From: Longimicrobium sp.
GTDB taxonomy: Bacteria; Gemmatimonadota; Gemmatimonadetes; Longimicrobiales; Longimicrobiaceae
Length of the DNA: 33,339 nt
Assembly (NCBI GenBank): GCA_036387335.1
Contig: DASVTZ010000044.1
Coordinates: forward strand, 1-33,339
Reading direction: 5' to 3'
Made by a program: the position numbers and the translations under genes. The notes below the pieces were generated by a model. The model ran no database searches. It was given only the letters and a program-made list of their open reading frames with translations, and had not been told where the DNA came from. Positions within the stretch are counted from its first letter, which is position 1, and every line of letters starts with the position of its first letter. Of the stretch, positions 2,904 to 13,410 are shown piece after piece.

Positions 2904-5900
2904 TCACTGCTCGATTTCCACCGCCTCCACGTTGTCGAAGCGCTCCAGATCGATCAGCAGCAGGTAGGGGTCAATGCCGGCTTCGGCGGGTTTGCGGGGG
3001 ACGGTGAGCGTGATGGTCTGCAGGCCGGTGCGGATGCGGTGGGGGCGCAGGTAGAGCCGCTCGCCGTACTCCGAGCCCAGGCCGCTGTTGGGGGCGAAGA
3101 CGCCGACCGGCACCCACTCGTTCATCGGCACCTCGGTCTCCACGCCGGCGGGGTCGACGGTGACTTTGCGCGCGCGCAGGCGGAGGGTGACCTGCCAGGC
3201 GCCCTCCGCGATCTGCCTGGCGGAGGCGCGCTCCGTCTTGAGCTGCCAGAAGGTGTTGGCGGCGAAGAGGTCGTGCAGGAGGTAGCGGAGCGAGTCGGGG
3301 GTGACCGCCTCGAGCTCGCGGTAGAGGTCCAGGGTGGTGGCCCGGGGCGCGCCCGCGCGCTGCTTCTCGCGCAGGCGGCGGAAGGCGAGGTTCACGCGGT
3401 CGGCGCCCATGTACTCGCGCAGGGCGAAGAAGGCCGCGGGGCCCTTACGATAGGCCGCGTACGGGTCCATCGCGCGGAGCAGGGGGACGGACTGGCGGAT
3501 GGGCGGGATGGGTGACGGCTGGCGAAAGAACCTCCGCAGCCGCTCCAGGTGCGCGCGCCCGTACGCCTCCTCCACGACGCCCATCCCGGCGTACCAGGCG
3601 AAGCTCTCGGAGAGCAGCGGCGCACCCTCGGCCAGGGCGTACGCGACACCCCACTGGTGCGCCATCTCGTGCGCGATGATGGCGAACGGCATGTCGAGGC
3701 CGTTCGGATCCTCGGCGGGGTTGTAGCGGGAGAAGCCTTCCGTGTAGTCGATCGTGGTCGCGTCGGCGTGCGCGCCCATGCCGCTGCCGGGGTTTTCGAC
3801 GAGGCGAATGAAGCTGTGCGGGTACGGGCCGAACTCGCGGCTGTTGTGCTCCAGCGAGGCGCGCACGCTGCGGAGGATGCGCGCCAGGTTCGCGGCGTGC
3901 CGCGGGTGATGGAAGACCTGGATCGTCACGGGCCGCCCCGCGCCCGACCTGGGCGTCCAGCGCTCCTCGTGCACGGCGTAGCGCGCGGAGAAGAAGCGGT
4001 ACTCGTTGCCGATCGGGGCGTCGGTGGCGTAGTGGAAGTACCGGCGCCCGTTCGTGGTCCACGTGCGGCGCAGCAGGCCGGGCGCCACGGCGGTCTGGTC
4101 GCCATCGGTGCCGATGACCGTTTCGACGGCGATGGGCGCGGCGCCGGTGAAGTCGCCCGCTCCGCCGGTGACGTCCCCGCCTGCCTCGACCTCGGCGAGC
4201 GAGGGGAAGAGGCGGCGCGGCGAGAGCCCGTGCGCCCGCCGGTCGCTGGGCTTGAACAGCTCGCGGCCGGGATCGTAGCCGATCTCGGGGAGGAAGTCGT
4301 TGGTGAAGAAGCTGCTGGCCGCCGTCACCGAGCGCCCCGCGCCGCTGTTGCGGAAGCCGCGCGGCTTGATGTGGATCGCGAAGCTGAGCCGCAGCGATTC
4401 GCCGGGCCCGAGCGGCTGCTTCAGCGCGTAGATGGCGTGGCCGAGATCCTCGTCCGCGACGACGCGCGTGGCGGGGCGGTCGAAGGAGATGGCGCCGGTC
4501 TGCACGCCGGGGCTGGTGGCCAGGTGGATCGTGTCGATGGGCACCTGCGTGCGGTTCACGAGGAGGTGGGAGCCGCGCACCTCCACCTCCCGCCGACGGG
4601 GATGGATCTCCATGTGCAGCTTCGTCCCCGCGATCCGCGGCTGAGGGGCGTTCGCGTACCGCCCGAAGCGCCGCTCGTACAGGGCCTGCCGCTCCGCCCG
4701 CTCGAACGGGGAAGCGTACTCGTTCAGCACGTTGGTGTTGTAGAAGACGAAGCCGCCCAGCGCGAGCACGAGCCCCGCCGCCGTCGCGGCCGCCACCGCC
4801 GTGGGACGCGTGAAGCGGAGGCGCGCGAGCTGGAGCCGCACGCGCGGGCGCCCCTCCAGCCCCCGCATCCAGAACACCCGCGCCACAACCGCCAGCAGCA
4901 GCGCCCAGGCCGCCCAGTAGAGCATGAACCACGTCCACGGCCCCAGTGACGCGCCGAATCCGCGCATGTCCGAGTAGGTCCACCTGGGCGCGGAGCCGTA
5001 GACGAGCAGGTCGTGGTCGATCCCCAGCCAGGCGGCGAAGGCGATGAAGAAGTAGGCGAGCAGCGCCAGCAGGTGGCCGAGGTACTTCTGATTGACCAGC
5101 CCCTGCACCACCAGGGCGAGCACGGCGAAGAGGAGGTACTCGGGTAGCTGGAGGCCGAAGAGGACCTTGATGTAGAGGCCGATCTCGAACTTGTAGTATC
5201 CCATCCTCACCTGCACCGCCATCCCGACCGCCATCAGCAGCGCCATCCACACGGCCAGGACCAGCCCGAGCCCCAGGAACTTGCCGGCGAAGCGCACCCC
5301 GTCCGGCACCGGCGCCGCGTCGGTGATCTCGCCCAGCCCCGCCTCCCGCTCGCGCCAGACCAGCTCGCCGGCGTAGAGGACGATGAACAGCGGCGTGATC
5401 ACCCACTGGGTGAAGGGCTGCGTGAGGGAGGCGGTCAGGAAGGTGAGCACGTACTCCGTCCGCGGCAGCAGCGGCGTCCCCGAGCTCTCGAAGTTCTGGG
5501 GGAGGACGATGACGGCGATCACGGCAATGCCGGCCAGCACGATGAGCCCGCCGCGGCTCTTTGCGATCGTGCGGAACGAGTCCCACGCGATCGCGAGCGT
5601 CTGGCGCGCGCGGCTCGCGAAGCCGAACGCCTGCTGGACGTGCGGCACGGCGATCGGTGCGGTGCTGGCGATGTCGCTCCCGGACGGCGTCGGCGCGTGC
5701 GCATCGCCCCTGTGCCTGCCGAAGCGCGCGATGCGGCTCCACCACACGGTCGCCGCCAGGTGCTCGAAGCGGAAGCGCGCGTAGGTGAAGGCGAGCGTGG
5801 CGAGCGCGACGCCCGCCCACACCAGGCGCCCGTGGAGCAGCGGGCCTTCGAGGGCGATCAGCCGCGTGCTCTTTTCGATCGGCGACCATCCCAGCACCAC

Positions 5901-6560
5901 CTCGGAGGTCATGTACAGGTGGCCGAAGACGTCGAGCAGCGCCGCCACGTCCCGCCGCTCCAGGTAGTACATCACGGCCGCGAACCCGCCGTACGCCACC
6001 GCGATCAGCAGCACGCTTCCCACGTAGCTCCCCAGCGCCCGCCGCCCCAGCGCCGCCCACGCGAACTGCACCGTCGTGCCGACGAAGGCGTTCGGCAGCG
6101 CAAAGAAGCCGAATGCCGTGAGGTACGCCGCCGGGCGGAATGGCCCGATCAGCTCCGGATCGGCCCCGGAAGCGTAGACGGCGAGCAGCACGCCCAGCGG
6201 AATCGCCAGCAGGATCAGCAGGTTGAGGACGAGCGCCGCGAGGAAGCGCCCGCCCAGGTGCTCCGCCTTGCTGACCGGCGCGGTGTAGGTGAGCGGGTGC
6301 ATCCCCGTCTCCACGTCGCGCGCGGCGATCTCGCCGGCCGTGGCCGCGCCCAGCACGAGCCACAGCAGGCTGCCGAACACCGTGGCGGACGCGATGATGA
6401 ACGGCGAGTTCAGGAAGAACTCCGCGTACAGCGCATCCGAGAGGAAGCTTTCCCGCGTGAAGATGAAGGCGATGGTGGCCAGGATGGCGAAGACGAGCCA
6501 GGTGGAGACGCGCCGCGCCTGGTAGGCAAGCTCGAAGCGGAAGATCGTCCGCAGTTTCAT
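2904..6560 (-). CDS. ABC-2 type permease fused to M1-family metallopeptidase domain
   Basis: A 1218-residue fusion. Residues 1 to about 605 are a multi-pass ABC-2 permease: an amphipathic start (MKLRTIFRFELAYQARR), a first membrane segment at about 19-37, many more segments in two blocks, and the last at about 585-603. Residues 606-1218 form an extracytoplasmic M1-like peptidase with the zinc motif HEMAHQW (964-970) and a third-ligand candidate Glu985 in LLSESFAWY. The spacing between the second His and this Glu is 16 residues, shorter than the classical 18. An exopeptidase-type GSGMGAHAD segment precedes it. The start is ATG 6560, overlapping the ATPase stop by ATGA; the upstream open frame is antisense or out-of-frame to that ATPase. 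Together they make an exporter whose permease carries its own peptidase. Confidence 0.9.
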   Translation of the reverse strand: MKLRTIFRFELAYQARRVSTWLVFAILATIAFIFTRESFLSDALYAEFFLNSPFIIASATVFGSLLWLVLGAATAGEIAARDVETGMHPLTYTAPVSKAEHLGGRFLAALVLNLLILLAIPLGVLLAVYASGADPELIGPFRPAAYLTAFGFFALPNAFVGTTVQFAWAALGRRALGSYVGSVLLIAVAYGGFAAVMYYLERRDVAALLDVFGHLYMTSEVVLGWSPIEKSTRLIALEGPLLHGRLVWAGVALATLAFTYARFRFEHLAATVWWSRIARFGRHRGDAHAPTPSGSDIASTAPIAVPHVQQAFGFASRARQTLAIAWDSFRTIAKSRGGLIVLAGIAVIAVIVLPQNFESSGTPLLPRTEYVLTFLTASLTQPFTQWVITPLFIVLYAGELVWREREAGLGEITDAAPVPDGVRFAGKFLGLGLVLAVWMALLMAVGMAVQVRMGYYKFEIGLYIKVLFGLQLPEYLLFAVLALVVQGLVNQKYLGHLLALLAYFFIAFAAWLGIDHDLLVYGSAPRWTYSDMRGFGASLGPWTWFMLYWAAWALLLAVVARVFWMRGLEGRPRVRLQLARLRFTRPTAVAAATAAGLVLALGGFVFYNTNVLNEYASPFERAERQALYERRFGRYANAPQPRIAGTKLHMEIHPRRREVEVRGSHLLVNRTQVPIDTIHLATSPGVQTGAISFDRPATRVVADEDLGHAIYALKQPLGPGESLRLSFAIHIKPRGFRNSGAGRSVTAASSFFTNDFLPEIGYDPGRELFKPSDRRAHGLSPRRLFPSLAEVEAGGDVTGGAGDFTGAAPIAVETVIGTDGDQTAVAPGLLRRTWTTNGRRYFHYATDAPIGNEYRFFSARYAVHEERWTPRSGAGRPVTIQVFHHPRHAANLARILRSVRASLEHNSREFGPYPHSFIRLVENPGSGMGAHADATTIDYTEGFSRYNPAEDPNGLDMPFAIIAHEMAHQWGVAYALAEGAPLLSESFAWYAGMGVVEEAYGRAHLERLRRFFRQPSPIPPIRQSVPLLRAMDPYAAYRKGPAAFFALREYMGADRVNLAFRRLREKQRAGAPRATTLDLYRELEAVTPDSLRYLLHDLFAANTFWQLKTERASARQIAEGAWQVTLRLRARKVTVDPAGVETEVPMNEWVPVGVFAPNSGLGSEYGERLYLRPHRIRTGLQTITLTVPRKPAEAGIDPYLLLIDLERFDNVEAVEIEQ

Positions 6561-7459
6561 GACGCCACCGCCACCTCGCTCCGGCGGCCGATGTGCCCGG
6601 CCATCGTCCCGAAATAGACATCCTCCAGGTCCGGCTCGGCGGGCTCGAAGCCGGACCCCGGCGCCGCGTCGGCGTACACGTGCACCAGGGTGCGCCCGGC
6701 GAGCATCTTGGTGGAGATCACCGCGTGCTCGCGCTCCACCCGGGCCAGCGCGCTCTTTTCGATGACGCTGCGCCAGATCCGCCCCCGCATCTCCTCGATG
6801 GCGCCGAGCGGCTCGGCCTCCAGCAGGATCTCGCCGCGGTCGATGATCGCCATCCGCGTGCACAGCTCGGAGACGTCCTCCACGATGTGCGTGGAGAGGA
6901 TCACCGCGCTGTTCTCGCCCAGCTCGCTGAGCAGGTTCAGGAACCTCACGCGTTCCGCCGGGTCCAGCCCCGCCGTGGGCTCGTCGACGATGAGCAGCTT
7001 CGGATTCCCCAGCAGCGCCACCGCCACGCCAAAGCGCTGCCGCATCCCGCCCGAGTAGCCGCCCAGCTTCTGCTTGCGCACCTCCCACAGGTTCGTCTGC
7101 CGGAAGAGCGCCTCCACCACTTCCCTGCGCGCCTTCTTCTCGGGGATGCCCTTGAGGATGGCGAAGTAGTCGAGCAACTCCTCCGCGCTCGCCTTTGGAT
7201 ACACGCCGAACTCCTGCGGCAGGTAGCCGAGCGTCTTCCGCACCTCGTCTTTCTGGCGCACGACGTCAAGGTCGCCCAGCTGGATGGTGCCGCTGTCCGG
7301 CTCCTGGAGCGTCGCAAGGATGCGCATCAGCGTGGATTTCCCGGCGCCGTTCGGGCCCAGCAGCCCGTACATCCCCGCCGGGATCGTGAGCGTCACGTCG
7401 TTCAACGCCTGCACGCCGTTGGGGTAGCTCTTGGAGACGCCGCGTATCTGCAATTCCAT
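6557..7459 (-). CDS. ABC transporter ATP-binding protein
   Basis: A 300-residue nucleotide-binding subunit of a DRA/CcmA-like exporter. It has Walker A GPNGAGKST (35-43), Q-loop Gln82 (YLPQEFG), signature YSGGMRQR (135-142), Walker B LLIVDEP (155-161) with the D-loop GLDP, and a switch His in LSTHIVED. The C-terminal ~80 residues after the ATPase core match the regulatory tail common in ABC-2 exporters, ending with DLEDVYFGTMAGH. The start is ATG 7459 (MELQIRGVSKSYPNG). The stop codon overlaps the start of the permease-peptidase by 4 bases, so the two are coupled and are expected to form one complex. It is probably transcribed from the promoter at 7539-7567, which has a repressor-like site in its spacer. 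Substrate unknown. Confidence 0.93.
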   Translation of the reverse strand: MELQIRGVSKSYPNGVQALNDVTLTIPAGMYGLLGPNGAGKSTLMRILATLQEPDSGTIQLGDLDVVRQKDEVRKTLGYLPQEFGVYPKASAEELLDYFAILKGIPEKKARREVVEALFRQTNLWEVRKQKLGGYSGGMRQRFGVAVALLGNPKLLIVDEPTAGLDPAERVRFLNLLSELGENSAVILSTHIVEDVSELCTRMAIIDRGEILLEAEPLGAIEEMRGRIWRSVIEKSALARVEREHAVISTKMLAGRTLVHVYADAAPGSGFEPAEPDLEDVYFGTMAGHIGRRSEVAVAS

Positions 7460-7534: not shown

Positions 7535-7567
7535 AAGTACTTTACGTTTCAAAGCGGCGCGGCGCAA
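7535..7567 (-). promoter_or_regulatory. Promoter with operator-like site for the ABC-peptidase operon
   Basis: On the minus strand TTGCGC (7562-7567) is separated by exactly 17 bases from TAAAGT (7539-7544), a plausible -35/-10 pair ending about 80 bases before ATG 7459. The spacer and -10 contain CTTTG-N4-GTAAAGTACTT (down to 7535), and the same arrangement occurs at 11487-11519 with identical spacing. The placement across the -10 is that of a repressor site. Confidence 0.65.
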
Positions 7568-7630
7568 GGCTTTGGGCGGAATGGTTCTGCCCGGTAATGT
7601 CGTCACTCGCCGCGTACCAGCTGCCCTGCT

Positions 7631-8074
7631 TCAGCCCTGGGCTGTGCCCGAATGCGCGTGCCGCCGAGCCGCGTACCGCCACGCCGTCGCCGATGCGACC
7701 GCCGAGAGGGTGCTCAGCAGGGTGATGGAGCCGATGACGATGGAGGCGAGCTGCCACAGCGGGAGCTTCGAAGCCGACTCGCCGATGGTGAACGGAAGCA
7801 CGCCCACCAGCACACCCGCCGCCGCGCCCCACGCGCCCGCCCGCGCCCGCGTCAGCTCGCCGGGTCCGCGGCGGCCATACGCGATCGCGATCAGCGCCGA
7901 AAACACCACTCCGGACAGGAAGCCGGGGTACGCTCCGATGGCCGGCCACATCTCGTCCATCGACCCATCCGGATCCACGATCAGCCCCGCCAGCACGGCG
8001 ATCGGCGCCCACACCACGGCCCACGCCAGGCCCATCACGATCGCACCCCGGATGCGTGTCAGCCACTCTTTCAT
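7631..8074 (-). CDS. Small multi-pass membrane protein, unknown
   Basis: The product is 147 residues. ATG 8074 is chosen over the GTG three bases upstream because the AGGAGG at 8081-8086 is then 6 bases away. About four hydrophobic segments are visible: AIVMGLAWAVVWAPIAVLAGLIV split in two around residues 11-33, GFLSGVVFSALIAIAYG, AGAWGAAAGVLVGVLPF, and SIVIGSITLLSTLSAVASA. The remainder is short loops with an Arg/His-rich tail, so it is an inner-membrane protein with no recognisable domain. It follows the serine hydrolase gene in the same direction but a strong hairpin (8115-8142) lies between them, so it may have its own transcript. No function is proposed. Confidence 0.75.
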   Translation of the reverse strand: MKEWLTRIRGAIVMGLAWAVVWAPIAVLAGLIVDPDGSMDEMWPAIGAYPGFLSGVVFSALIAIAYGRRGPGELTRARAGAWGAAAGVLVGVLPFTIGESASKLPLWQLASIVIGSITLLSTLSAVASATAWRYAARRHAHSGTAQG

Positions 8075-8114
8075 CACAGCCTCCTCTAACGGATCGTACA
8101 GGGTTGATGGAGCG

Positions 8115-8142
8115 GCGGGAGAGGCCGCGCGGCCCCTCCCGC
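8115..8142 (-). terminator. Hairpin downstream of the serine hydrolase gene
   Basis: Outer arms GCGGGAG (8115-8121) and CTCCCGC (8136-8142) pair perfectly, and GGCC/GGCC pair inside after one mismatch. It begins 8 bases past the hydrolase stop on the minus strand. No U-run follows, so intrinsic termination is uncertain. Confidence 0.4.
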
Positions 8143-8149
8143 ATGAGTG

Positions 8150-9535
8150 TTACTGCTTCTTGAGGATCATGTATGAGCCCGGCGTGCTGACCCGCAGCTC
8201 CGTAGCCGGGCCGCTGTCGCCGTTCGCGCGGCGGAAGGTCAGGATGCGGACACCCTGGCGGAAGGTGAGCCCCTCGACCCACGGGAACGGACGCGGCGGC
8301 GCGCCGTCTGTGGAGAAGGCGAGTCCGCCCGGCGTCTGCGTCACCTCGATCGTCGCGTCGCGGCCGCGTCCCTGCCCCACGTACCGACCCAGCAGCGGCG
8401 CGGCATCGCCGGTGAACCACTGCGGCCGCGGCTGATTCCAGCCCAGGATCTGGCTCGCGAGCTCACTCGCGACGGCGGCGGGATCGAGGTTGCCGGCCGT
8501 GTTCTCGAGGACGACGACGGCCATCTTCGCGGCGGGATACCACCCCACCTCCGCCGTGAAGCCGGCGATGGCGCCGCCGTGGCCGATGTAGCGGTGGCCG
8601 CTCGGGTCCGGCCCCACCTGCAGCCCCATGCTGTAGCGCAGCGGCGTGCCGTCGTTCAGCTTCGACGGCGTGATCAGCTCGGCGTACGATGCCGGCGAGA
8701 GCACCTTGCCGCCGTGCAGCGCCCTCAGCCACGTCACCATGTCGCCCGCCGTGGAGCAGAGCGAGCCCGCTGCGAACGGCCAGGTGTGCACGTTGGTATG
8801 CGCGCGGCGCACCGCGCGGTTCGGCGCCACCAGATAGCCATGCGCGCGGCGGGGGACGTTCTCCGTGCTGTTGCAGTACATCGAGCGCGTCATCCCCAGC
8901 GGCTCGAAGATCTTCTTCTCGACGTAGTCCTCGTAGCTCATTCCGCTCGCCTTCTCCGCGATCAGGCCCAGGAGGAAGAATGCGGAGTTGTTGTAGATCT
9001 GCGCCTCGCCCGTCCTGAACTGGAAGGGGGTGCGCCGGATCAGCGCGTACGCCGAGTCGCGGGGGAAGCGCACGTTCGTCACCAGATTGCCGAACTCCGG
9101 CATCTCGGTGAGCCCCACGATTCCGGACGTGTGATCGAGCAGCCGGCGCAGCGTCACCCGGTTGCCGCGCGTGTCGAAGTCGGGGAGCCACTTCGTGATC
9201 TCGTCGTCCAGGCTGAGCTTCCCCTCGTCGCGGAGCTGGAGCAGCGCGACGGCGGTGAACTGCTTGGTGACGGAGCCGATCTCGAACATCGCGTCGCGCG
9301 GCATCGGCACGTCCCACTCGACGTTCGCCTTGCCGTAGCCCTCGTAGAGCAGCGTGTCGTTCCCCCTCACCACCGCCGCGACGATCCCCACCGCGCGGTT
9401 CTCCTTCACTCCGGATGCGGCGATCGAGTCCAGCCGTACGTGGAGCGGACGCCCCGGCTGCGCGCCCGCTGAGGCGCTGATGGTAACGAGGGCGATGGCG
9501 GCGAGCGATGAACGGAGTGTGGCTTTCCTGAGCAT
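8150..9535 (-). CDS. Serine hydrolase, beta-lactamase / class C family
   Basis: The product is 461 residues with a signal peptide (residues 1-25, basic start, SLAAIALVTISASAGA, cleavage after AGA or AQ). The catalytic Ser-x-x-Lys is SVTK (88-91), the second motif is Y181-N-N183 and the third is HGG (319-321) in place of KTG, as in many esterase- or D-peptidase-like members. A C-terminal segment after about 365 (GRYVGQGRGRDATIEV) resembles the small barrel domain that often follows this fold. It is therefore an exported hydrolase acting on peptides, esters or lactams; the sequence does not say which. It has a strong sigma-70-like promoter (9592-9620) and a hairpin after its stop, suggesting a monocistronic gene. 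A true antibiotic-resistance beta-lactamase is not implied. Confidence 0.9.
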   Translation of the reverse strand: MLRKATLRSSLAAIALVTISASAGAQPGRPLHVRLDSIAASGVKENRAVGIVAAVVRGNDTLLYEGYGKANVEWDVPMPRDAMFEIGSVTKQFTAVALLQLRDEGKLSLDDEITKWLPDFDTRGNRVTLRRLLDHTSGIVGLTEMPEFGNLVTNVRFPRDSAYALIRRTPFQFRTGEAQIYNNSAFFLLGLIAEKASGMSYEDYVEKKIFEPLGMTRSMYCNSTENVPRRAHGYLVAPNRAVRRAHTNVHTWPFAAGSLCSTAGDMVTWLRALHGGKVLSPASYAELITPSKLNDGTPLRYSMGLQVGPDPSGHRYIGHGGAIAGFTAEVGWYPAAKMAVVVLENTAGNLDPAAVASELASQILGWNQPRPQWFTGDAAPLLGRYVGQGRGRDATIEVTQTPGGLAFSTDGAPPRPFPWVEGLTFRQGVRILTFRRANGDSGPATELRVSTPGSYMILKKQ

Positions 9536-9591
9536 GAATGCGCAGTTGGTTGGGGTCGGAGTGCACGTGCCGTTCGGCAGCTTTGCAATCC

Positions 9592-9620
9592 TTAGTACGT
9601 GGCCGCCCGCAGCGTGTCAA
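9592..9620 (-). promoter_or_regulatory. Sigma-70-like promoter of the serine hydrolase gene
   Basis: On the minus strand a perfect TTGACA (9615-9620) is followed after exactly 17 bases by TACTAA (9592-9597). The predicted start of transcription lies about 50 bases before ATG 9535. This is one of the two best consensus promoters in the window. Confidence 0.75.
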
Positions 9621-9636
9621 ACATCCTGCACTCACC

Positions 9637-10194
9637 TCAGACCGCGCCCCGCCCCGCCGGAGCGTTTCGCCGCCGCGCGTCCGCCTCCCCCGCCCCGGCC
9701 ATGGGGTCGCCCGCGCCCACGAGTTCGGGCTCCACCGCTTCCGGCAGCGCGTGCTCGGCGCGCTGGGCCAGCTTGAGCGAACCGCCGGCCGCGACCGCGC
9801 CGAAGAGAGCCGCGAGCGCCGCATCATCCAGGATGAGCCCCGGCGGAATCAGCCCACCGCCGGAAAGTACGCTCATCGTCTCGAGGAAGAGCGGCACGAA
9901 GAGCCCCGCCATGACCCCGCCGCCGACCCCGAAGCGCACCACGCTCATCTCCGCGAGGCGCCGCCCCCGGTACAGCGTCCCGACGGCGAGGGAGAAAGCT
10001 CCTCCCACGATGCCGCCCATCACCCCCAGCCTCGCGGCGATCCCGAGCCCATCCAGCCAGATCACTTCCGCGGGAAGGAATCCGACGGACTTGAGCACGG
10101 CGAACACCGCGAGCGCGAGGGCAGTCCACCCGGCGCCCCAGACGAGGACGTTTCCGATCGCGCCCCGCAGGCGCCTGGCGAAGCTGGCACTCAT
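9637..10194 (-). CDS. Membrane protein encoded with an FAD oxidoreductase, unknown
   Basis: The product is 185 residues. ATG 10194 overlaps the stop of the upstream oxidoreductase gene by ATGA, so translation is coupled. Predicted membrane segments: VLVWGAGWTALALAVFAVL (about 15-33), GVMGGIVGGAFSLAVGTLY (about 57-75), GGGVMAGLFVPLFLETMSVL (about 90-109) and DDAALAALFGAVAAGGSLKLA (about 123-143). The tail from 145 on is hydrophilic and acidic then basic. Four-helix proteins with this pattern (a glycine-rich second and third helix) recur next to regulators and oxidoreductases in related genomes, but I cannot name a family. The product is predicted to sit in the inner membrane; a link to the oxidoreductase substrate is plausible from gene order only. 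Confidence 0.78.
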   Translation of the reverse strand: MSASFARRLRGAIGNVLVWGAGWTALALAVFAVLKSVGFLPAEVIWLDGLGIAARLGVMGGIVGGAFSLAVGTLYRGRRLAEMSVVRFGVGGGVMAGLFVPLFLETMSVLSGGGLIPPGLILDDAALAALFGAVAAGGSLKLAQRAEHALPEAVEPELVGAGDPMAGAGEADARRRNAPAGRGAV

Positions 10195-11378
10195 GATGGC
10201 ACTCCCTGTCGTGATGAAGCGGCAACGAGAGCGGGCGCCGCGCGCACTCCACGCCCGCGCGCGACATCCGGGAACGATCCGCGGCCGAAAAACACCCTGT
10301 GCGCGACGGTGCTGAACGGCGGGAGGCGGAGCGCGGCGCAGGCCAGCTCGGCCGCGAGGGGTGAGCGCACCGCCGCCAGCGCCCGGCGGATCAGCAGGCG
10401 CGTGCGGAAGCGGGCGCGCAGCGAGGTGCCGTCGTACGGCGCCAGCGCGGCCGGGTCCCCCGTGGCCAGGAGCTCGATCGCCACCTCCGCGGCCAGGGCG
10501 GAGAGGCGGAGGCACGGATCCAGCCCGCCCGCCGTCAGCGGCGACACCGCGCCGGCCGCATCGCCGGTCAGCAGCCCGCGCGCGCAGGCGATGCGCGGCA
10601 GCACACCGCCCACCGGGATGCGCCCGCCGCGCCGCTCGCACGGCACCGCGCCATGCAGCCCGAAGCGCGCCGCCACGCGCACCTTGAACCGCCGCAGCGC
10701 CTCCGCCGGCTGGAAGCGCGATCTGTAGCCGCCCACGCCCACGTGCACCTCTTCGCCATCGTCCACCACCCAGGCGATGTAGCCGGGCGCCACGCTGGGA
10801 TCGATCCAGCAGTGAAAGGCGGGGTCGTGCCCCGTGGCGGCGCCGCGGAACACCTCCTCCACCCCCACGATCCACTCGCGGTTCTCGTCCAGCCCCAGCG
10901 CGGGCGCCACCCGCGAAGTCGCGCCGTCCGCGCCGACCACGAAGCGCGCCAGGAGCCGCTCCCGCCGCCCGCCCCGCTCCAGCGTCGCGGCGGAGCCCGC
11001 TCCGTCCGCCTCGAGCGCCGCCAGCGTCGTCGAGGGCGCCCACTGCACGCCCGCGCGGAGGCACGCGTCCAGCTCGCGGCGGTAGAGCGCGCCCATGCGG
11101 CCCACGCGGTACTCGTCGTGGGGGCTCTCCAGGAGCTGCGACCGCCCGCCGGGCGAGTAGAGCGCCACGCGCCGCACCGGCGGCCCCAGGCAGTCGTCCG
11201 GCAGCTCGAAGCTCTCCAGCGTCCGCCGGACGAAGATACCGGTGGTGTGCACCGCGTGATCGACGGCGGGCTTGCGGTCGGCCAGCAGCACGCTCGCGCC
11301 GGCCTCTCCCAGCCGCCGGGCGCACTCCAGCCCTGCCAACCCCGCGCCCACAACGAGCACGTCCACGCGCGCGCTCAT
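10191..11378 (-). CDS. FAD-dependent oxidoreductase (geranylgeranyl-reductase / halogenase-like group)
   Basis: The product is 395 residues. The N-terminus has a dinucleotide-binding GAGLAG (11-16) preceded by VDVLVV and followed 20 residues on by an acidic/basic LADRKP. A second FAD motif, VGADGATS (148-155), and the third, TGDAAGAVSPLTAGG (from 271), define the PHBH-type flavoprotein fold. The GDAAG...PLTAGG variant is the one found in geranylgeranyl reductases and related alkene or aromatic-modifying flavoenzymes. The start is ATG 11378 (MSARVDVLVVG). It is followed with a 4-base overlap by a membrane protein. Upstream lie a promoter and operator-like palindrome identical in plan to that of the ABC operon, so both operons are probably co-regulated. 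Substrate unknown. Confidence 0.88.
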   Translation of the reverse strand: MSARVDVLVVGAGLAGLECARRLGEAGASVLLADRKPAVDHAVHTTGIFVRRTLESFELPDDCLGPPVRRVALYSPGGRSQLLESPHDEYRVGRMGALYRRELDACLRAGVQWAPSTTLAALEADGAGSAATLERGGRRERLLARFVVGADGATSRVAPALGLDENREWIVGVEEVFRGAATGHDPAFHCWIDPSVAPGYIAWVVDDGEEVHVGVGGYRSRFQPAEALRRFKVRVAARFGLHGAVPCERRGGRIPVGGVLPRIACARGLLTGDAAGAVSPLTAGGLDPCLRLSALAAEVAIELLATGDPAALAPYDGTSLRARFRTRLLIRRALAAVRSPLAAELACAALRLPPFSTVAHRVFFGRGSFPDVARGRGVRAAPALVAASSRQGVPS

Positions 11379-11486
11379 GACCCGCCTCGCATGCCGGTTC
11401 CTTTCACCTCGGTCACGTGCTCGTGCATGTGTCGGTCGATCATCTTGTCCCGAAGCTCGAATGCAACGCCAGTTTGCCGTACTTGA

Positions 11487-11519
11487 AAGTACTTTACACT
11501 ACAAAGAGTACTCGCGCAA
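11487..11519 (-). promoter_or_regulatory. Promoter with operator-like palindrome for the FAD oxidoreductase operon
   Basis: On the minus strand TTGCGC (11514-11519), a 17-base spacer and TAAAGT (11491-11496) repeat the arrangement at 7539-7567. An AGTACT hexamer bounds each end (11488-11493 and 11507-11512), giving an imperfect palindrome between and over the promoter elements. Transcription would run toward ATG 11378. Confidence 0.68.
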
Positions 11520-11553: not shown

Positions 11554-12342
11554 CTACATCTGCCGGAACAGATGCACGTAGGCGCGGCTCACCGGCAGCA
11601 CCTCGTCGCGCCCCCTGAGGTGGATCTCCGCGGTTTCGTTCTCGTGCCGCTTCACAAGGCGGATCGCGCGCAGGTTTACGACGACCGAGCGATGGACCTG
11701 CGCGAACTGCTGCGGATCGACCTGCTCCAGCAGATCCTTGAGCGGAACCCGGATCACTGCCTCGGCGGGTTTGCCGCCGTCGCGCCACGCCACGACCGTG
11801 TACTTCGCGTCCGAGCGTAGGTAATCGACGTCGTCGATGGCGATGAGGCGTACGGTCTTCCCCGCCTGCGCCCGTATCCAGCGCAGCGGCTCGCTCTTGC
11901 CGCCGCCCTGCAGCATCGCGAGCTGGGCGGTGAGCTGCTGCAGGAGCTGCTCGGTGTTGATCGCGGGCCTGGAGGATTGCAGACGTTCCTGGAGACGGCT
12001 CACCGTTTCCGCGAGCCGCGCCGCCTCCACCGGCTTCAGCAGGTAGTCGAGCGCGCCCTGCGCAAAGGCCTGCACCGCATAGTGGTCGTACGCGGTTACG
12101 AACACGAGGTGCGCGCGCCGGCCGATCTGGTTCGCGGCATCCACGCCCGAGAGCCCCGGCATGTGAACGTCGAGGAAGCAGATGTCGGGATGCAGCTCCT
12201 CGAACAGCCGCACCGCCTCCCGCCCGTTCCGCGCCTCGGCCACCACCTCGAGCTCGGGCCACGCATCCGCGAGCTGGCGCCGCAGTGCATCGCGCAGCAG
12301 CGGTTCGTCGTCGGCGATCAGCGCCGTCGCGGGCGCCTTCAT
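11554..12342 (-). CDS. LytTR-family response regulator
   Basis: The product is 262 residues: an N-terminal receiver domain (about 5-120) with acidic pocket Asp11/Asp12, phosphoacceptor Asp58 (CFLDVHMPG), Thr83 (FVTAYD) and Lys103 (LLKPVE); a linker of ~35 residues rich in Gln; and a C-terminal LytTR DNA-binding domain (about 157-260) with the characteristic VDYLRSDAKYTVV, FAQVHRSVVVNLRAI and LPVSRAY segments. It is the cognate partner of the upstream kinase, whose stop overlaps this ATG by 4 bases. LytTR regulators bind direct repeats upstream of target genes, often for envelope or peptide-export functions. The targets are not evident here; the shared palindrome of the ABC and FAD operons does not look like a LytTR site. 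Confidence 0.94.
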   Translation of the reverse strand: MKAPATALIADDEPLLRDALRRQLADAWPELEVVAEARNGREAVRLFEELHPDICFLDVHMPGLSGVDAANQIGRRAHLVFVTAYDHYAVQAFAQGALDYLLKPVEAARLAETVSRLQERLQSSRPAINTEQLLQQLTAQLAMLQGGGKSEPLRWIRAQAGKTVRLIAIDDVDYLRSDAKYTVVAWRDGGKPAEAVIRVPLKDLLEQVDPQQFAQVHRSVVVNLRAIRLVKRHENETAEIHLRGRDEVLPVSRAYVHLFRQM

Positions 12343-13388
12343 GTCTGTGCCGGCATGTCGACCTCGGCGGTGACACCGCGTTCCGCGCCCGATGTCAGCC
12401 GCAACTGGGCCGCATCGCCAAAGAGCAGCCGCAGCCGCTCGCGCAACGCGGTCAGGCCCGTCCCGAGGCCGCTCTCCGACGGATGGAGACCGACACCTGT
12501 GTCCGTGACGCGGACAACGCAGCGCTCACCCAGGCGCGCGACGCCGACGTCGATGCGGCCCCCTTCCTCGCTGGGATCGATCCCGTGCCGCACGGCGTTC
12601 TCCACCAGCGTCAGCAGCGTGGTCGGGGGGCAGCGGAGCTTCAGCGCGGAGGGGTCGACGTTCATCGCGTACTGGAGGCGGTCGGGCATCCGCATCTGCA
12701 TCAGCTCGAGATAGGGCGTCACGAGCTGCAGCTCGCGCTCGATGGTCGCCGCCGGCTCGTGGAGCAGCGGGACCGCCGCGCGAAGGTACTGGATCAGGCT
12801 CCCCAGCACCGGCGACGCGCGCGGCGAGCCCGCATCGACGAGCGCCTGCACGTTGGCGAGCGTGTTGAACAGGAAGTGCGGCGCGACCTGCGCCTGGAGC
12901 AGGTGCAGCCGCGCGTCGAGCCCCTGCCGCTCCAGCTCGCTCCGCTCCAGCGCGAACGCGAGCTTCTGATGCCGCGCGAACGCCTCCTTCTGCCGCACCA
13001 CCGCCGCCAGCGCCGTCCACGGCGCGATGAGGATCGCCGCGAACGAGAGGTGCATCCGGTCGCTGTCCTCCAGGAACGGCGTCGCGCCTCCGGAAGGCAG
13101 GTACAGCAGCGTCAGCGTGACCGGCACGATGACGCCGACCGCGACGACCTGGAGTACCCATCGTTCGATCCACCCCGGCAGCCTCCGCGGCCATGCCTCG
13201 AACAGCGTGAACGCCGCCGTAGTCGTCACGCCGAGCGTGATGGTGCGGAGGAAGAGAGTGGAGGTGGACCCCCTCCATCCGTTCAGCAGCAGGAACCCCA
13301 CGGCGACCGCGATCGCCAGCGCGACGCCGAAGCGCCGCGCCGTCCTCGCGATGATGCCGGCCCGCTTCGCCGCCGTGCCCAGGGTCAT
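12339..13388 (-). CDS. LytS-type sensor histidine kinase
   Basis: A product of about 349 residues. The N-terminal half holds about four membrane segments (for example ALAIAVAVGFLLLNGW, TITLGVTTTAAFTLFEAW, VLQVVAVGVIVPVTLTLLYL, LSFAAILIAPWTALAAVV) with no extracellular sensor domain, then a short coiled coil (KLAFALERSELERQGL). The kinase part is of the His_kinase (PF06580) type: phospho-His171 in AQVAPHFLFNTLANV, N-box TLVENAVRHG (Asn264), and G-boxes DTGVGL and GLGTGLTALRERL. ATG 13388 is used; GTG 13403 would add five residues and no clear ribosome site decides between them. It sits 22 bases (7 for GTG) after a membrane protein gene and overlaps the response regulator. Confidence 0.92.
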   Translation of the reverse strand: MTLGTAAKRAGIIARTARRFGVALAIAVAVGFLLLNGWRGSTSTLFLRTITLGVTTTAAFTLFEAWPRRLPGWIERWVLQVVAVGVIVPVTLTLLYLPSGGATPFLEDSDRMHLSFAAILIAPWTALAAVVRQKEAFARHQKLAFALERSELERQGLDARLHLLQAQVAPHFLFNTLANVQALVDAGSPRASPVLGSLIQYLRAAVPLLHEPAATIERELQLVTPYLELMQMRMPDRLQYAMNVDPSALKLRCPPTTLLTLVENAVRHGIDPSEEGGRIDVGVARLGERCVVRVTDTGVGLHPSESGLGTGLTALRERLRLLFGDAAQLRLTSGAERGVTAEVDMPAQT

Positions 13389-13410
13389 GGCCGCCCGCTG
13401 CACGCCGCGG

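Follow-up and report, generated by a model that had tools for sequence, protein, structure and literature searches.

Autorepressors that act on palindromic operators are already a known kind of regulator. Among the closest described systems, the SdpR family is of the ArsR type, other than HTH_34, and CreBC is a two-component system with another site. In Bacillus subtilis, SdpR is an autorepressor and SdpI a membrane protein that sequesters SdpR (PMC1626106). The open literature searched offered no operator, no regulon and no partner for bacterial members of HTH_34 (PF13601), and nothing relevant on the operator motif described below, on a link between CreD and DUF4153 or on regulons in Gemmatimonadetes; subscription journals lay outside the search, so an earlier description may exist there. 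The solved sequence nearest to the HTH_34 protein considered here is PH1061 (PDB 1ub9; phmmer E 1.7e-7). The window under analysis is the whole 33,339-nucleotide stretch of Longimicrobium sp. DNA, in which two operons share a palindrome at their promoters; taking the evidence as a whole, the best explanation is that both sites are, very probably, operators of an HTH_34 (PF13601) winged-helix regulator encoded on contig C7, outside the window.

Both window operators were read directly in the sequence and lie on the minus strand, operator 1 at 7535..7554 (read 7554-7535, CTTTGAAACGTAAAGTACTT) and operator 2 at 11487..11506 (read 11506-11487, CTTTGTAGTGTAAAGTACTT). The core promoter of the ABC/M1 operon (7539..7567, minus) consists of TTGCGC (7567-7562), 17 nt and TAAAGT (7544-7539), with the operator over the -10, and that of the FAD-oxidoreductase operon (11491..11519, minus) of TTGCGC (11519-11514), 17 nt and TAAAGT (11496-11491). 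At both sites CTTTG-N4-GTAAAGTACTT sits at one offset inside TTGCGC-N17-TAAAGT, and direct reading confirmed the original prediction of these shared elements at 7535-7567 and 11487-11519. The two had been called identical; this holds for the elements just named, whereas the sites differ in the N4 and in the spacer's 5′ half. The operator is a palindrome, ACTTTGYANTRYAAAGT, with the right arm lengthened by ACTT, and at both window sites it overlaps the -10 hexamer. When up to three mismatches were allowed, sites 1 and 2 were the only matches in the window, with none in 100 dinucleotide shuffles and a chance expectation of none. A sigma-70 consensus scan gave no match for TTGCGC/TAAAGT, which has only a weak likeness to sigma-70; its reading as a promoter rests on its conservation in relatives and not on a sigma-70 match. 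Site 2 had also been described as bounded by AGTACT on both sides: the left AGTACT is present, but it lies 2 bp off the register of the palindrome axis and is not kept in relatives. On these grounds it was rejected as a second half-site, and it probably does not belong to the operator.

Operon 1 begins with the gene of an ABC transporter ATPase (6557..7459, minus; PF00005 and NCBIfam ABC models), whose start ATG lies about 75 nt past operator 1, followed by that of an ABC-2 type permease fused to an M1-like metallopeptidase (2904..6560, minus), recognized from its translation (HEMAHQW...E), with PF12730 at its cut-off and PF01433 weak. The first gene of operon 2 encodes a FAD-dependent oxidoreductase (10191..11378, minus; PF01494) that is geranylgeranyl-reductase-like, with 127 bits to TIGR02032, below the cut-off of 158.8. 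It overlaps by 4 nt the gene of a 185-aa membrane protein (9637..10194, minus); a serine-hydrolase/beta-lactamase-fold protein (8150..9535, minus; PF00144, 241 bits) is a probable further member, and the gene of a 148-aa membrane protein (7631..8077, minus) lies just upstream of operator 1, operon 2 ending 64 nt ahead of the -35 of site 1. Judged by gene order, these four genes would form one transcript. The 185-aa protein shares 50% identity over 158 aa with the product of a gene from another family (G122; L034:1585-2115) that is preceded by CTTTGTAGCGCAAAGTACTT, and the 148-aa protein shares 39% identity over 83 aa with a G011 homologue that has its own operator, TTTGCATCGTAAAGTACTT (L018); because these homologues carry the operator directly, regulon membership beyond the first genes is supported.

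Two other features were seen around site 2. A 22-codon ORF (MIDRHMHEHVTEVKGTG..., window 11442-11374, minus) lies between the site and the FAD gene, overlapping the start of the latter, and G005 (L008) has a similar ORF. The ORF may encode a leader peptide, or the similarity may reflect no more than close relatedness. Directly upstream of the site is a pair of genes for a histidine kinase (PF06580) and a LytTR response regulator (window 11554-13403, minus).

The 5.8 Mb genome to which the window belongs was scanned with patterns and with a sequence-only profile. The strict pattern, with up to two mismatches, occurs at four places in the whole genome (reversed control: 0). The operator profile, whose 75 source sites all come from other genera, ranks site 2 first and site 1 second, followed by places on C116 and C105 and by the HTH_34 promoter on C7 (E 4e-4 to 0.016 for these five); scored in this way, the window sites behave like independent members of the family. 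The relaxed consensus finds seven places, namely the profile places and a site at uppS. There is also a weak sixth candidate, ATGCTTTGTACTGTAAAGTG, at C33:23297 (L240, about 1501-1518), with a profile E of 0.14. A genome-wide scan had been proposed as a check, and it points the way the original prediction expected: operator places are few (about five to seven), nearly all in promoters, and one stands ahead of the regulator's own operon.

The site at C105:59193 precedes the gene of a chromosomal subclass B3 metallo-beta-lactamase (L003 1533-2444; NCBIfam 254 bits against a cut-off of 240) and lies over its promoter, TTGACC-N17-TAGAGT; this operator is kept in G005 (L017). The one at C116:7922 precedes the gene of a 138-aa membrane protein, with TTGCGG-N17-TAAAGT. 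Since the same operator and promoter architecture is found at the window genes, on C105 and on C116, four unrelated genes share one architecture.

The claim that a single regulator, coded outside the window, is implied by the two sites is supported by where the site leads, namely to a putative regulator gene on contig C7. This gene encodes a 123-aa HTH_34 (PF13601) winged-helix protein (C7:16549-16788; 94.7 bits against a cut-off of 27), and the match of about 94 bits covers all 80 model positions. The gene order is a 208-aa membrane partner, the HTH_34 protein and then uppS, the partner gene overlapping the HTH_34 gene by 8 nt (L056). The operon is preceded by GTGCTTTACATCGCAAAGCACTT; its promoter carries GTGCTTTACATCGCAAAGCACTTGACT, and uppS carries GTGCACTTTACATTGCAGAGTGCTTTG, an operator variant right after the HTH_34 gene (L056 1790-1815, contig C7) that is kept across the genus. 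With one strong HTH_34 in 5.8 Mb, chance is well under 1% per site. The HTH_34 orthologue is found in 9 of 10 genomes of the genus; its promoter site is present in each of the eight loci long enough to include that promoter, and the uppS site in 9/9. The L031 row, which was in the wrong frame, was left out of the first HTH_34 alignment. The predicted regulon in this genome comprises the HTH_34 operon, uppS, the ABC/M1-peptidase operon, the geranylgeranyl-reductase-like operon, the B3 metallo-beta-lactamase and the 138-aa membrane protein.

Within the genus, the motif stands ahead of the ABC ATPase orthologues of five relatives (L007, L009, L011, L013 and L014), with CTTGCG at equal distance before each of them, and it recurs at the FAD-oxidoreductase region (L008, G005; same architecture), at the 138-aa protein (L006, L016) and at the metallo-beta-lactamase (L017). 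In the phylum, 72 of 395 genomes carry a site with one mismatch or none, giving about 85 sites (reversed control: about 20). More specifically, a C before TTTG (position -1), although absent from the query, is present in 74 of 75 phylum sites, the inner positions obey the dyad symmetry of ACTTTGYANTRYAAAGT, and the Y/R positions of the palindrome, likewise outside the query, are also conserved; because conservation beyond the query positions is independent, most of the phylum matches are real. Most of the approximately 85 sites precede a two-gene unit, in which the gene of a membrane partner about 200 aa long (RAMDNLxFIRxTMERAGSFTAVxGWG) is followed by that of the HTH_34 winged-helix protein. 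A close HTH_34 (E below 1e-30) was found in 30/30 phylum genomes with the site, against 8/30 without it. Where a site lies away from the HTH_34 operon, all 11 genomes keep a close HTH_34, against the same 8/30 (Fisher p 2e-5, uncorrected for phylogeny).

Beyond the phylum, exact matches to ACTTTGNANNGCAAAGTACTT were sought in 85,000 genomes, and at least 118 stretches were found, mostly in Bacteroidota. Among the 120 sites listed, 85 are at an HTH_34 gene and 12 more at a partner, CreD or DUF4153 gene; several of the remaining listed sites are cut off by the end of the locus. The palindrome precedes the HTH_34 operon in this genome, its genus and its phylum, in Bacteroidota, in Acidobacteriota and in others, and PF13601 was confirmed by Pfam in ten loci of distant groups (Ignavibacteria, Actinomycetota, Verrucomicrobia, Planctomycetota, Neomarinimicrobiota, Alphaproteobacteria and a Thorarchaeota record). 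The membrane partner of this genome is homologous to that of Flavobacterium (E 8e-19). In Bacteroidota, HTH_34 is often followed by the gene of CreD (PF06123; 485 bits in L124) or DUF4153 (PF13687), each with its own site. In the Thorarchaeota record (L178), the exact palindrome lies about 0.7 kb from an HTH_34 gene (PF13601, 88 bits), and a binning error is possible there.

The position of the palindrome relative to the promoter distinguishes two classes of site. In class A, the type seen in the window, TTG lies at -14 with a 17-nt spacer in 25 of 53 sites (any other offset is found in at most five), and the palindrome's TAAAGT is the -10; in class B, which includes the regulator's own operon, TTGAC in the right arm is the -35, with TAnnnT 17-18 nt further on (23/40). 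The same ABC gene has a class A site in the genus of the window and a class B site in L109. The palindrome therefore stays constant while the promoter shifts around it, which fits a repressor covering either the -10 or the -35 and, on these sequence grounds, supports the original prediction of a repressor-type palindrome placed over a promoter and common to both operons. Read across these promoters, the shared palindrome is an operator and not a promoter element. Were it instead a promoter element read by one particular sigma factor (CTTGCG-N17-TAAAGTACTT) and not a repressor site, the strongly conserved TTGCG-17-TAAAGT spacing of class A (TTG at -14, as above) would be accounted for, but in class B, and at the ABC gene of L109, the palindrome lies over the -35 with the -10 elsewhere; in Bacteroidota its left arm falls on TAnnTTTG, the -7 box of Bacteroidota; the dyad symmetry reaches past any -10; and the site travels with the gene of a DNA-binding protein. 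Such a sigma factor is very unlikely to be the explanation.

As to which protein would bind, PadR- and BlaI-like repressors had been put forward. A PadR-type repressor could be suggested by three things: PadR, like HTH_34, is a winged helix, and the profiles of the two match each other weakly; the site in L041 and L102 is followed directly by a PadR gene; and PadR-like genes exist in this genome (L057, L058). However, L041 and L102 are the only two of about 85 phylum sites with a PadR gene directly downstream, against dozens of sites at HTH_34 operons and a link to HTH_34 across phyla, and the PadR-like genes inspected in this genome have no site nearby, which makes PadR a very unlikely binder (counts from a local PadR profile, which drifted into HTH_34 proteins on iteration, are left out). 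Inspection of the genes directly downstream in the inspected loci brought no BlaI-type gene to notice, and both families seem poor candidates. It is barely credible that the sites are bound by the LytTR response regulator (11554-12342), whose gene adjoins site 2 just upstream of it in this genome, when neither at site 1 nor at the other inspected loci was a LytTR gene noticed and the palindrome is unlike the direct-repeat site style of LytTR proteins. There may also be two regulators with overlapping specificity in the genus: the regulator's own site on C7, CTTTACATCGCAAAGCACTT, has no mismatch to the relaxed consensus and its outer arm is GCAC, as in the regulator's own sites of this genus, against GTAC at the window sites; outside the genus, the regulators' own sites usually have GTAC arms.

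If the C7-encoded HTH_34 protein is the regulator, it would bind the palindrome as a dimer and block RNA polymerase by steric hindrance. In this way it would repress itself as well as the ABC/M1-peptidase operon, the FAD-oxidoreductase operon and another two or three genes. We infer repression as the direction of control because the operator overlaps promoter elements; HTH_34 may instead act as an activator. Since HTH_34 has a DNA-binding domain only, its co-transcribed membrane partner, so placed by gene order, may well be the sensor or anti-repressor, and one could speculate that an envelope signal perceived by this partner leads it to release or capture the repressor, in the manner of SdpI and SdpR. 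The predicted targets (UppS, CreD, DUF4153, ABC export/peptidase and the B3 metallo-beta-lactamase) suggest a cell-envelope stress regulon, here and elsewhere, and HTH_34 appears to control mostly cell-envelope genes in several bacterial phyla.

For the large and little-studied HTH_34 family, this supplies a concrete operator together with a predicted regulon and a candidate for the sensor partner, and the groups concerned include model Bacteroidota that can be cultured. CreD and DUF4153, about whose roles little is known, would receive their first regulatory context, and a chromosomal B3 metallo-beta-lactamase is placed under a defined, albeit predicted, switch. The broadest form of the proposal stands at even chances: a previously undescribed envelope-stress regulon, conserved in this phylum, in Bacteroidota and Acidobacteriota and in several others, with an HTH_34 autorepressor, a near-invariant operator, a co-encoded membrane controller and, as targets, CreD, DUF4153, UppS, ABC/peptidase exporters and, in this genus, a metallo-beta-lactamase.

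Compared with known systems, the arrangement resembles SdpR/SdpI in that a small autorepressor is coded together with a polytopic membrane protein, the co-transcription of the partner with HTH_34 being judged by gene order only. It differs in having more predicted targets; sequestration of HTH_34 is hypothetical, and the system has no known toxin or ligand. Predicted control of CreD in Bacteroidota, and of a metallo-beta-lactamase here, recalls CreBC-controlled creD in E. coli and related systems of beta-lactamase control, but a single winged-helix protein and a palindrome take the place of CreBC. PadR and BlaI are likewise small winged-helix repressors of palindromes over promoters, whereas the regulator gene linked to the present site is HTH_34.
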